From Bifidobacterium actinocoloniiforme DSM 22766 (GTDB taxonomy: Bacteria > Actinomycetota > Actinomycetes > Actinomycetales > Bifidobacteriaceae): DNA of 64,000 bases. This document shows, piece after piece, positions 12,812 to 17,241 of the stretch. The stretch's first letter is position 1; each line of letters opens with the position of its first letter. The notes beneath the pieces are model-generated. The model was given only the letters and a program-made list of their open reading frames with translations. It had not been told where the DNA came from and made no database searches. The DNA lies in the NCBI RefSeq assembly GCF_001263395.1, contig NZ_CP011786.1, positions 1,178,001-1,242,000 of the forward strand, read 5' to 3'. The translations under genes and the position numbers were made by a program.

Positions 12812-12817
12812 TATACT
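12812..12817 (+). promoter_or_regulatory. Probable -10 box (TATACT) for the RCC1 gene
   Basis: TATACT lies 140 bp upstream of the RCC1 start codon. TTGTCG at 12792-12797 is the best -35 but gives a short 14-nt spacer. It is the strongest sigma70-like -10 in the region. Confidence 0.5.
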
Positions 12818-12902: not shown

Positions 12903-12957
12903 GTAAAACACGGGCCGGGCGTCGCGTCGCGCCACCAGGGCCTGTTTTGGAGGGGTG

Positions 12958-15900
12958 ATGAGTCGTTTCCGCGCCGCCAGCGCCGCATTCGCGGCCCTGG
13001 CCATGATCCTCCTGGGGGGGGGGGTAATTCGACGGCCCGTCCCGCCCACGCTGAACCCAACCACCTGACCCGATCGGGAGCCCCCGCCTCGCAGACCGTG
13101 GACGGCTTCACCCTGTCCCCCACCAAAGGCCCCGCCAACCAAGACGCCATGGCCACGCTGACACCGCCAGCCCCGCCAACCAACGTGCGCTTCACCCGAA
13201 TCAGCGCAGGCTACGATCACAGCTTGGCGATCGGCTCGGACGGCAACACCTACGCCTGGGGATACAACAACGAAGGCGAACTGGGCGACGGCACCAACAC
13301 CCAGCGCAGCCTGCCCGTGCGGGTGAACACGCCAACCGGCGTGACCTTCACCCAAATCAACGCAGGAAAATATCACAGCCTAGCGATCGGCTCCGACGGC
13401 AACACCTACGCATGGGGAGACAACGGCTCCGGCGAACTGGGCGACGACTCCAAGATTAACCGCAGCACACCCGTACCCGTGCACGCGCCATCCGGCGTGA
13501 CCTTCACCCAAATCAGCGCAGGCGGCGCTCACAGCCTGGCCATCGGCTCCGACGGTAACACGTACGCGTGGGGAGACAACAGTTTCGGTCAGATGGGCAC
13601 CGGCACCAGCAGCAGCACCCTGCCCAAGCGCGTGAGCGCGCCAGCCGGCGTGACCTTCACCCAAATCAACGCAGGCTGGAATCACAGCCTAGCCATCGGC
13701 TCGAACCGTAACACCTACGCATGGGGAGCCAACTGGTACTACCAGCTGGGCGACGACTCCAAGATTAACCGCAGCACACCCGTACCCGTGCACGCGCCAT
13801 CCGGCGTGACCTTCACCCAAATCAGCGCAGGCTGGGGGCACAGCATGGCCATCGGATCGGACAACTACACCTATGCATGGGGTTACAACAATGAAGGCGA
13901 ACTGGGCGACGGCACCCCCAACCTACGCAGCACGCCCGTGCGCGTGAGCACGCCAGCCGGCGTGCGCTTCACCCGAATCAGCGCAGGCTACTGGCACAGC
14001 CTGGCCATCGGCTCAGACGGCAACACCTACACATACGGCAGCGCTTACGCATGGGGAAATAACAGCGAAGGCGAGCTGGGCCATGGCACCGGCGGCAACC
14101 AACACACGCCCGCACCGGTGAGCACGCCCTCCAGTGGCAACCCCACGAACACCTGGAAAACCATCAGCGCAGGCAACAGTCACAGCCTGGCCCTCGACTC
14201 GGACGGCCACGCCTACGCATGGGGATACAACCGGTTCGGTCAGCTAGGCGACGGCACCACCAACGACCACAGCAAGCCCGCGCCGGTGCTCACGCCCCGG
14301 TATGTGATCGACGGCGTCGCCTTCGGCGGGGCAAGCGTCACCAGTAAGACCGTCAACGCCACCACCGGCGCCTGGGACATGCACGTGCCCCAACACACCC
14401 CGGGCGCCGTCGACGTGACCGTCGCCTACCATCTCGACGGCCTCGACGTGAACGGCAACATCGCCAACCCCAGATACCAGTCCGGCACGGTCACCCTGCG
14501 TTACACGTACGCCACCCCGTACACCGTCAGCTTCCAACTGGGCGGGGCGCCGGGAACCCCGCCCGCCAGCCAGTACTCGTACCCGGACGACCCGCAGCCC
14601 ATCAACTGGCCGGTCCCCGACCCGGTTTGGGCGGGCCACTGGTTCGACGGGTGGGCCAAACCCGACGGCAGCCCCTGGGACTTCACCCAACCCGTCAGAA
14701 ACGACCTGACCCTGACCGCCACATGGAGGACCCCACGGTTCACCATGACCCCCACCCGGGGCCCGGACACCGGCGGAGCCGCCATCCACGTCACACCCCC
14801 CAACCCGCCCGACGACGGCATCACCTACATGCAGGTTAGCGCCGGCTATACGCACAGTCTCGCCATCGGCACCGACGGCAACGCCTACAGCTGGGGCGAC
14901 AACCAACACGGTCAGCTGGGCGACGGCACCACCGCCAACCGCAACCTGCCCGTGCGCGTGCACGCCCCCAACGGCGCACGCTTCACCAGCGTCAGCGCCG
15001 GCAACGGCTTCAGCCTCGCCATCAGCAGCGACGGCCGCCTCTACAGCTGGGGATCCAACAGCAACGGCCAACTCGGCGACGGCGCCGCCACCGACCGCGC
15101 CACGCCCGTCCCCGTCAACCCCGCCGCCGACGGCACCGCCACCTGGAAAACCATCAGCGCCGGCTACTACCACAGCCTCGCCCTCAGCAGCGACGGGCAC
15201 GCCTACAGCTGGGGAAGCAACGCCAACGGCCAACTCGGCAACGGCGGCACCGACGCCAACCCCCACACCACGCCCTCCCGCGTCACCGACCCAAGCGGCA
15301 CCACCACCTGGACCAGCGTCAGCGCAGGCGGCTACCACAGCCTCGCCATCAGCGGCGACGGCCACGCCTACAGCTGGGGAGCGAACCAGTACGGCCAACT
15401 CGGCAGCGGCACCAACCCCCACACCACGCCCGCGCCCGTCAGCGACCCGGCCGGCAAACCCAACACCACCTGGACCAGCGTCAGCGCAGGCCAGTACCAC
15501 AGCCTCGCCATCAGCGGCGACGGCCACGCCTACAGCTGGGGAAGCAACAATAACGGTCGGCTCGGTGACAACACCACCACTGACCGTACTACGCCCACAC
15601 CGGTCTCCGACCCGACAGGCAAACCCAACACCACCTGGACCAGCGTCAGCGCAGGCGGCGCCCACAGCCTCGCCATCAGCGGTGACCACCACGCCTACAG
15701 CTGGGGATGGAACACCTACGGACAACTCGGCAACGGCAGCAGCGACTCCAACCCCCACACCACGCCCGCGCCAGTCAGCGACCCGGCAGGCAAACCCAAC
15801 ACCACCTGGACCAGCGTCAGCGCAGGCGGCGCCCACAGCCTCGCCATCAGCGGTGACCACCACGCCTACAGCTGGGGATGGAACGCCTACGGTCAACTTG

Positions 15901-16301
15901 GCGACGGCGCCACCACCAACCGCGGCACACTCGCGCCCGTCCACGCACCCGCCATCACCGTCACCGGCGTCACACTCGACCAAACCAACGCCCCCGACCC
16001 CACCTGGAACACCACCAACAACACCTGGGACATCACAACCCCACCCCACCCCGAAGGACAAGCCACCGCCACCATCCACTGGACCCTAGGCGGCTCCCCC
16101 CAAACCGACTACCCCCTCACCTACGAGTACTACGACATCCGCACCCTGCCCAAAGCCGGCGGCACCCCCGCCCACCAGCTCGCGGGAGCCACCCTCCTCG
16201 CCCTCACCACACTCGCCGCACTCACCTTCACCGGCCACCAACTCGCCACCAAACACCACCACACCAACCAACCCACGACCACAACCACCAGCAGCAAATA
16301 A
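12958..16301 (+). CDS. RCC1-repeat cell-surface protein with sortase signal; currently out of frame at a G11 tract
   Basis: The ATG at 12958 (GGAGGGG upstream) opens a signal peptide, MSRFRAASAAFAALAMILL. This frame runs into 11 G at 13014-13024 and stops at TGA 13066. In the adjacent frame the peptide continues NSTARPAHA|EPNH, an ideal signal-peptidase site, and stays open to 16301. Joining the frames needs 9 or 12 G. The mature part has 14 RCC1 repeats (HSLAIGSDGNTYAWG...GQLGDG) in two groups of seven. These are separated by an Ig-like stretch and an InlB-B repeat ending WDFTQPVRNDLTLTATW. The C-terminus shows LPKAGG, a hydrophobic helix and a His/Lys tail, an LPXTG-like sorting signal. RCC1 repeats form seven-bladed propellers that bind partners; an adhesive role is inference. 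Only a signal-less product from the GTG at 13098 could be made in the present frame. Confidence 0.8.
13014..13024 (+). repeat. G11 homopolymer within signal-peptide codons
   Basis: Eleven consecutive G residues follow the CTCCT of the hydrophobic signal segment. With 11 G the frame ends after 36 codons; with 9 or 12 G it joins the 1,060-codon downstream frame. This is the typical arrangement of a slipped-strand contingency locus, although a homopolymer sequencing error would look the same. Confidence 0.9.
13437..13832 (+). repeat. Perfect 87-bp direct repeat (two copies) in the RCC1 gene
   Basis: Positions 13437-13523 and 13746-13832 are identical, 309 bp apart (103 codons). They encode LGDDSKINRSTPVPVHAPSG and the following blade edge. 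Recombination between them would remove or add two RCC1 repeats in frame. Confidence 0.9.
15616..15884 (+). repeat. Perfect 98-bp direct repeat (two copies) in the RCC1 gene
   Basis: Positions 15616-15713 and 15787-15884 are identical, 171 bp apart (57 codons, one RCC1 repeat). They encode GKPNTTWTSVSAGGAHSLA and the next strand. This indicates recent duplication of a blade. Confidence 0.9.
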
Positions 16302-16324: not shown

Positions 16325-16354
16325 GGCCCGGCAGCCGCACCAAGCTGCCGGGCC
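16325..16354. terminator. Terminator hairpin after the RCC1 gene
   Basis: A perfect 10-bp stem (GGCCCGGCAG/CTGCCGGGCC) with a 10-nt loop, 23 bp past the RCC1 stop. There is no long U-tract. It also lies downstream of the convergent methyltransferase gene. Confidence 0.6.
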
Positions 16355-16473: not shown

Positions 16474-17241
16474 CTAAATACCCCTCTGCGTCACCCAAGC
16501 ATGCATGGCCACCGCAGCCGCCGCCCCGGCGTTAATGGACCGCACGGAGCCGAATTGCGAAATGTAAACCACATCATCCGCCAACTCCACAGCGGTTTGC
16601 GTGAGCCCAGGCCCTTCGGCCCCAAAAAGCATAAGGCAGCGCTCAGGAAAGTCATAGGTCTCAATCGGCACCGCGCCGGGAATGATGTCGAGCGCGACAA
16701 CGCGAGCGTCGGCCGCCGCTTGGGCCGCCCGTTCCAGGCGGTCGCGTTCGGCGTCGCTGCGGGCGACGAGGGCCTGAGCGCGCATGTCCCGGGCCTCCTG
16801 AGCAAGCTCACGCCTCCACCCGCTGACAAGTTCCTGGATGCTCGGATGGTGGTCCACGTGCTGGTAGAGCTCGGTCATGAGCGCGCCCTTGCGGTTCCAT
16901 TTGTGGGGGCCGACGATGTGGACGCGGCGGGCGCCGAAGGCGTTCGCGGAGCGGACCATGGAACCGATGTTGAAGTCGTGGGTCCAGTTTTCGACGGCCA
17001 CCTCGAAACCATGACGGCCACGGGCGTCCAGGTCGGCGCGGATGGCTTCGACCTTCCAGTAGCGGTAGCGGTCGAGCACGTTGCGCCGGTCGCCTTGGTC
17101 GAGCAGCTCCGGGTCGAACTCAGCGCCTTCCGGCCTGGGTTGGTCCGGGTGCTCCTGGTTCCAAGGGCCCAGGCCTACCCGCCGGAACACTGGTTCGCCC
17201 GACTCCATAGCGGCCTTGGTGACCGGATTAGGCTCCCTCAC
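16474..17241 (-). CDS. TrmH/SpoU-family RNA 2'-O-ribose methyltransferase
   Basis: 255 residues with a SPOUT fold. Motif 1 is NWTHDFNIGSMVRSANAFGARRVHIVG (about 83-110), motif 2 is CLMLFGAEGPGL and motif 3 is VYISQFGSVRSINAGAAAAVAMHAW, the residues that form the SAM-binding trefoil knot. It methylates a ribose in tRNA or rRNA; the target cannot be read from the sequence. The start codon overlaps the end of the upstream PRTase-like gene by 4 bp, so the two are translationally coupled. Confidence 0.88.
   Translation of the reverse strand: MREPNPVTKAAMESGEPVFRRVGLGPWNQEHPDQPRPEGAEFDPELLDQGDRRNVLDRYRYWKVEAIRADLDARGRHGFEVAVENWTHDFNIGSMVRSANAFGARRVHIVGPHKWNRKGALMTELYQHVDHHPSIQELVSGWRRELAQEARDMRAQALVARSDAERDRLERAAQAAADARVVALDIIPGAVPIETYDFPERCLMLFGAEGPGLTQTAVELADDVVYISQFGSVRSINAGAAAAVAMHAWVTQRGI

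Follow-up and report, generated by a model that had tools for sequence, protein, structure and literature searches.

A poly-G tract in the signal-peptide codons of an RCC1-propeller gene of Bifidobacterium actinocoloniiforme as a probable phase-variation switch of a hypervariable surface protein family

The window analysed here comprises the bases 1,178,001–1,242,000 (64,000 nt) of the 1,830,060 bp single-contig genome of Bifidobacterium actinocoloniiforme DSM 22766 (CP011786), a strain of bumblebee-gut origin whose genome was sequenced by Illumina only, with gaps closed by PCR (PMC4582582). The gene under study lies on the plus strand of the window. A Shine–Dalgarno sequence, GGAGGGG (12949..12955), which is kept before the ATG in near-identical paralogs, is followed by the ATG and the first signal-peptide codons (MSRFRAASAAFAALAMIL-L, 12958..13013), a block that is shared by four paralogs and diverged in two others. 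Adjacent to this block is a run of eleven G (13014..13024), whose first G is the last base of codon 19 (CTG) and which continues with Gly codons. The RCC1 frame, which is open from stop to stop (12903..16298, stop codon 16299–16301), reads from here through an AHA signal-peptidase motif (13044..13052, matched by eye, cleavage before the Glu of the following EP) into RCC1 repeats.

In the assembled sequence the 1,067-codon RCC1-propeller ORF is out of frame with the ATG at 12958, and translation from this ATG yields the 36 aa product MSRFRAASAAFAALAMILLGGGVIRRPVPPTLNPTT. By frame arithmetic we calculated the products for tract lengths of 7–14 G. A tract of 9 or 12 G gives a single protein of 1,113 or 1,114 aa, respectively, whereas 7, 8, 10, 11, 13, and 14 G give products of 21–38 aa. 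As expected of a contingency locus, a long coding homopolymer sets the reading frame of the window gene by its length. GGG makes up only 5 of the 139 Gly codons of the RCC1 ORF, whereas the Gly codons of the leader are all GGG. A previous sequence-only reading of this DNA had placed the G11 run exactly at these positions within signal-peptide codons, had joined the leader to the long downstream frame only at 9 or 12 G, and had described that frame as open through the AHA site; sequence and frame arithmetic agree with it on all three points. It had also called the gene currently OFF. This holds for the frame as assembled, but the assembled frame reflects a consensus built from Illumina data only (PMC4582582). 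By analogy a mixed ON/OFF population is likely in culture, because in Bifidobacterium breve most of the culture had a poly-G length other than the deposited one (PMC9187656).

Upstream of the gene a scan for the sigma-70 consensus found no promoter. A weak candidate −10 element, TATACT (12812..12817, plus strand), was picked out by eye, TATACT or TACACT being present upstream of the near-identical paralogs. Just 3′ of the gene a GC-rich inverted repeat of 10 bp (16325..16354, plus strand) could serve as terminator, although a consensus terminator scan gave no match for it. The next gene downstream (16474–17241) is on the minus strand. A second long tract, C10 (12689..12698, G10 on the minus strand), is situated in the intergenic region between the RCC1 gene and rne, 316 bp before the G11 tract and without an obvious promoter around it; we assign no role to it. 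Switching of a promoter by this C10 tract was considered and rejected, as the only −10-like box is found about 110 nt downstream of the tract. The genome contains three sortase genes, the nearest about 260 kb from the window gene.

The first RCC1 domain (13182..14312, Pfam RCC1) is predicted with high confidence to form a seven-bladed β-propeller (AlphaFold, mean pLDDT 91.6). Its model matches UVR8 (Z 56.3, 29% identity) and BLIP-II (Z 26.6, 33% identity over 240 residues). A Listeria–Bacteroides repeat (Flg_new, PF09479, 30.0 bits at a cut-off of 27; 14520..14720) separates it from the repeats of the second RCC1 domain (14874..15950, PF00415 matches); altogether 14 stretches match Pfam RCC1. 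The C-terminal part carries the sortase-type motif LPKAG (16146..16160), LPxAG rather than strict LPxTG, followed by a hydrophobic stretch and a positive tail up to 16298. According to two studies, bee bifidobacteria possess RCC1-repeat cell-wall proteins with RCC1 domains, a Flg_new repeat, and an LPxTG-type anchor in 7–24 copies per genome, diversified by duplication (PMC3447821, PMC4449606); for B. actinocoloniiforme ten such proteins are counted there (PMC4449606). The window protein shares the RCC1 domains, the Flg_new repeat, and an LPxTG-type C-terminal motif and belongs to this family.

We aligned 53 repeats of the near-identical paralog group. The scaffold is nearly fixed (ISAG[xx]HSLAIGSDGNTYAWG[x]N[xx]GQLG), and five positions are hypervariable with entropies of 2.6–3.6 bits, being occupied mostly by Y, W, S, G, N, and D. 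The next most variable positions reach up to 1.8 bits and most others remain below 1 bit. In the model of domain 1 the hypervariable positions map to the A–B and C–D loops of each blade; from the strand alternation we infer that these loops lie on one face of the predicted propeller and the conserved B–C turn (SDGN) on the other. The paralogs are mosaic: over about codons 250–550 the window gene shows 100% identity to the 57-kb gene, which thereafter falls to roughly 60–90%. A diversity-generating retroelement as source of the hypervariability was rejected, as no match to reverse transcriptase (PF00078) was found in the genome. Between recent paralogs dN/dS amounts to 0.76–1.07, and among the 267–633 substitutions that separate the window gene from the paralogs B, C, and F not a single one creates a stop codon, where 7–17 would be expected without constraint. 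Judged from these substitutions, the RCC1 sequences are diversifying and not decaying, because dN/dS is near 1 and yet the expected stops are absent. The earlier description of the protein as fully maintained is therefore right as to the open, stop-free frame, but the gene is diversifying (dN/dS about 0.8–1.1) rather than strongly conserved.

Seven RCC1 genes of the genome are sizeable; of two further, minor matches one is a decayed fragment. Six of the seven genes carry a tract of G11–G13 exactly 56 nt after the ATG, two of them in frame and four out of frame. The tracts of the window gene and of the genes at 57.9 kb and 928.0 kb are G11 and OFF, the gene at 1,762.0 kb is OFF with G13, and the gene at 1,079.0 kb is ON with G12. 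The gene at 1.5 kb is ON with G11, because the bases after its tract differ and put it into another register. The seventh gene contains a short in-frame G6 at the equivalent place and looks locked ON. Four of the six tract-bearing leaders are near-identical and hence not independent. The leaders of the 1,079-kb and 1,762-kb genes, however, are clearly diverged from the others (MRCYRSLSAIVALISLIVLGGG, MRRFRTASAILALISMIVLGGG) and have kept the tract; therefore, recent shared ancestry is not the whole explanation. The decayed fragment at 143.3–143.5 kb (L198) consists of a 210 aa frame running into unrelated sequence ending ALGGLSHQDPEMLSNLMRFK; it contains stops, and its leader is without a G run. 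The circular chromosome was closed inside an RCC1 gene (L039, 1–1547; L197, 1828978–1830060), and the joined frame breaks there. The repeat scores of this chromosome-end segment equal those of the 57-kb paralog, and its tail repeats the 57-kb gene with the frame lost, which suggests that the junction is misassembled; the 3′ part of this copy is doubtful.

How exceptional are such runs? Dinucleotide shuffling of the window gave 12.1 expected G8 matches as compared to 7 observed, by which runs of G8 or longer would not be rare. We discarded this shuffle as a test of rarity since first-order models over-predict long runs here and it is uninformative. The run lengths in the window drop about five-fold per additional base; there are none of 8 or 9, one of 10, and one of 11. 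Extrapolated from this decay, 0.03 G/C runs of at least 10 are expected in the window, where two were observed. Genome-wide, overlapping 9-, 10-, and 11-mers of G occur 125, 80, and 44 times, which corresponds to 45 runs of at least 9 and 36 of at least 10, as compared to about 5 and about 1, respectively, when the decay in the 64 kb of the window is extrapolated to the genome. Runs of exactly 9 (n = 9) are rarer than runs of at least 11 (n = 22), and the tail of the distribution is not geometric. About 30 runs of G10–G15 are intergenic, some of them approximately 70–120 bp upstream of genes (metE-like, lepA-like, SDR dehydrogenase).

In a survey of the nearest genes and a Pfam scan of small tract-containing ORFs, the examined tracts of at least nine G outside the RCC1 leaders were, with one exception, intergenic or placed in short ORFs that match no Pfam family. 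The exception, a MerR regulator, was discarded, its helix–turn–helix domain beginning at residue 89, downstream of the tract. As no real coding tract was found, the other poly-G tracts were rejected as phase-variable genes. Among the tracts examined in this genome, only those of the RCC1 leaders thus lie in recognisable coding sequence. The placing of their tract is clearly above chance, the same nucleotide offset being found in paralogs with diverged leaders.

To look beyond this strain we compared the RCC1 genes of 20 Bifidobacterium genomes, a sample that is not exhaustive and in which some RCC1 ORFs are truncated where a contig or stretch ends. A G run of at least eight near the 5′ end is present in 52 of 104 RCC1 genes, of which 14 are ON and 38 OFF, calls that in the relatives depend on a heuristic choice of the start codon. 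There are three tract sites, which are clade-specific. In the genomes G007 and G018 the tract is found in 13 of 13 and 7 of 9 sampled RCC1 genes, respectively, at an offset of 56–57 nt with one exception at 64 nt. In the asteroides-type clade a subset of the RCC1 genes has G11–G15, mostly 162–177 nt after the start and beyond the signal peptide, and in G023 and G026 the tract is at 138 nt. The differing sites suggest that the tracts arose independently in these clades. In two cross-genome pairs, neither of which includes the window gene, the tract length differs between close relatives with near-identical flanks. L079 of G018 (G10, ON) and L085 of G007 (G11, OFF) are 99.5% identical over the 206 nt before the tract; L109 of G026 (G13, ON) and L106 of G023 (G14, OFF) are 99.7% identical before and 99.0% after it. 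A like difference is seen in less close pairs, between L074 of G018 (G10, ON) and L082 of G007 (G11, OFF) and between G024 (G11, ON) and both G014 and G021 (G12, OFF). In the RCC1 ortholog starting with MRHRRKKQ the tract is an out-of-frame G12 in each of the six asteroides-clade species examined (L202, L097, L207, L209, L212, and L215). This constancy is odd, as it fits a freely slipping tract less well; culture may select for its OFF state, as it largely does for the pili of B. breve, or the ortholog may use another form of slippage.

Poly-G switching as such is known from the genus. In B. breve UCC2003 the G tracts of the sortase-pilus genes bbr_0113 and bbr_1889 were shown to slip by Maximum Depth Sequencing, further relevant G tracts of this strain are mentioned without detail, and pilus genes with similar tracts are listed for further Bifidobacterium species (PMC9187656). 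As in the window gene, a G10–G11 tract splits the ORF with the secretion signal from that of the mature surface protein, and slippage restores the frame. In B. breve, however, the tract belongs to the leading gene of a pilus operon that includes a sortase of its own, with one or two such loci per genome (PMC9187656), whereas here single RCC1-propeller genes with hypervariable repeats occur in up to 13 tract-bearing copies per genome, and no sortase adjoins the window gene. A pilin operon with a dedicated downstream sortase was not found at the window gene. The available text of the two studies on the RCC1 family mentions neither phase variation nor homopolymers nor frameshifts and does not describe hypervariable loop positions (PMC3447821, PMC4449606). 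Searches for RCC1, B. asteroides, or the bee gut together with phase variation returned nothing relevant, subscription journals and preprints being outside their scope. The statement that such tracts are rarely documented in bifidobacteria thus needs to be qualified: switching by poly-G is on record for sortase pili (PMC9187656), and for the RCC1 family we found no report.

Taken together, we consider it highly probable that the G11 tract is a slipped-strand phase-variation switch of a multigene, hypervariable, putatively sortase-anchored surface family. We infer that within populations the tract frequently becomes longer or shorter by one G during replication. The gene would be ON with 9 or 12 G: the signal peptide would read into the RCC1 frame, and the two-propeller protein of 1,114 aa would be exported, cleaved after AHA, and attached through LPKAG by sortase. 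With other tract lengths it would be OFF, translation ending after 21–38 residues. Six of the seven RCC1 genes would toggle independently, each by its own tract length, and a clone would show many combinations of proteins. Switching would probably alter binding or antigenic surfaces presented to the bee gut, phages, or immunity. The proposal of the sequence-only reading, a phase-variable surface protein in the OFF state, is strongly supported by paralogs and relatives, with the correction that the gene is one member of a switching multigene family and no lone locus.

We weighed four other explanations. An error of sequencing or assembly, with a true tract that is stable and in frame and a gene that is always ON, is unlikely. 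An Illumina-only genome with gaps closed by PCR (PMC4582582) invites such errors, as Illumina sequencing struggles in G tracts (PMC9187656), and the chromosome ends meet in the frame-broken RCC1 gene described above; therefore RCC1 genes were assembled badly. Nevertheless, out-of-frame tracts recur across the RCC1 family in many independently sequenced genomes, and one wrong length would leave unexplained why diverged leaders keep a near-pure GGG run at one place although Gly is rarely encoded by GGG.

Alternatively, the tract could be fairly stable in the DNA and RNA polymerase or the ribosome could slip on it, so that some full-length protein is made at a constantly low level. Slippage during transcription is favored by long homopolymers, and the MRHRRKKQ ortholog, which stays at G12 (OFF) in six species, would suit such a programmed site. 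But a programmed site would hold one offset, whereas the RCC1 genes of this genome lack a constant one (G11 OFF, G11 ON, G12 ON, G13 OFF) and near-identical pairs differ by one G. We regard this explanation as quite improbable.

It is very improbable that the tract is a by-product, free of selected function, of a general growth of G runs in these genomes. The roughly 30 further runs of at least ten G outside recognisable genes would agree with such growth, and so would an observation in the relative G007, in which runs of at least 11 G follow the direction of replication (before 1.03 Mb the minus strand carries 26 of 28 such runs, and beyond that point the plus strand carries 19 of 19). Neutral runs, however, would fall mostly in coding DNA, whereas here they enter the RCC1 leaders alone, at one offset, and the tracts of the relatives are at clade-specific offsets. 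In B. actinocoloniiforme the orientation of the G runs is patchier than in G007, which may hint at inversions or at errors in contig order.

Hardly any weight remains for a decaying pseudogene with the tract as fixed frameshift: dN/dS near 1 in recent paralogs would allow it and the 143.3-kb fragment shows that RCC1 genes can decay, but the window gene has 1,067 stop-free codons and no nonsense changes relative to the paralogs B, C, and F where 7–17 are expected, its variation is mainly confined to five repeat positions with the scaffold residues nearly fixed, and in the truly decayed copy stops are present and the G run is gone.

The Opa proteins of Neisseria form a multigene hypervariable surface family, whose genes are switched independently by a simple repeat in the signal-peptide codons and undergo mosaic exchange. 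In its logic the RCC1 family, being multigene, hypervariable, probably switched gene by gene through a repeat, and mosaic, is closest to this system, which is mentioned in PMC3745409. The two differ in their parts: the repeat of Opa is a CTCTT pentamer and its protein a Gram-negative β-barrel, whereas the RCC1 family of this Gram-positive gut symbiont has a G run and a putatively wall-anchored propeller. BLIP-II (3qhy, 1jtd), a secreted bacterial binding protein that inhibits β-lactamase, shares the RCC1-type propeller. Unlike the multigene RCC1 family, BLIP-II is encoded in single copy and binds an enzyme. We know of neither phase variation nor family-wide hypervariability in BLIP-II. Switching by a G tract is an already known mechanism; its use across a whole family of hypervariable RCC1 propellers appears to be unreported.

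On balance, we think it somewhat probable that bee-gut bifidobacteria possess an Opa-like repertoire. The wall-anchored RCC1 propellers would be phase-variable by independent G tracts in many genes, which arose at differing sites in three or more clades; they would also be hypervariable in the loops of one binding face rich in Tyr, Trp, Ser, Gly, and Asn, reshuffled by recombination. Together they would give a beneficial symbiont of insects a combinatorial, variable binding coat.

To our knowledge, the RCC1 proteins form the most diverse of the surface families in bee-gut bifidobacteria, and no function is known for them. Should most RCC1 genes be phase-variable, a clone would be a mixture of surface types, expression in culture would mislead, and annotations of these genes as pseudogenes or as late-starting cytoplasmic proteins would be wrong. 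The predicted hypervariable, Tyr/Trp-rich propeller face would represent a natural repeat binding scaffold, which makes it of interest for possible ligands. The finding also raises the question why the mutualist of an invertebrate, a host without antibody-based immunity, needs an Opa-like variation; adhesion to particular tissues or host genotypes, competition between strains, and escape from phages are candidate reasons.
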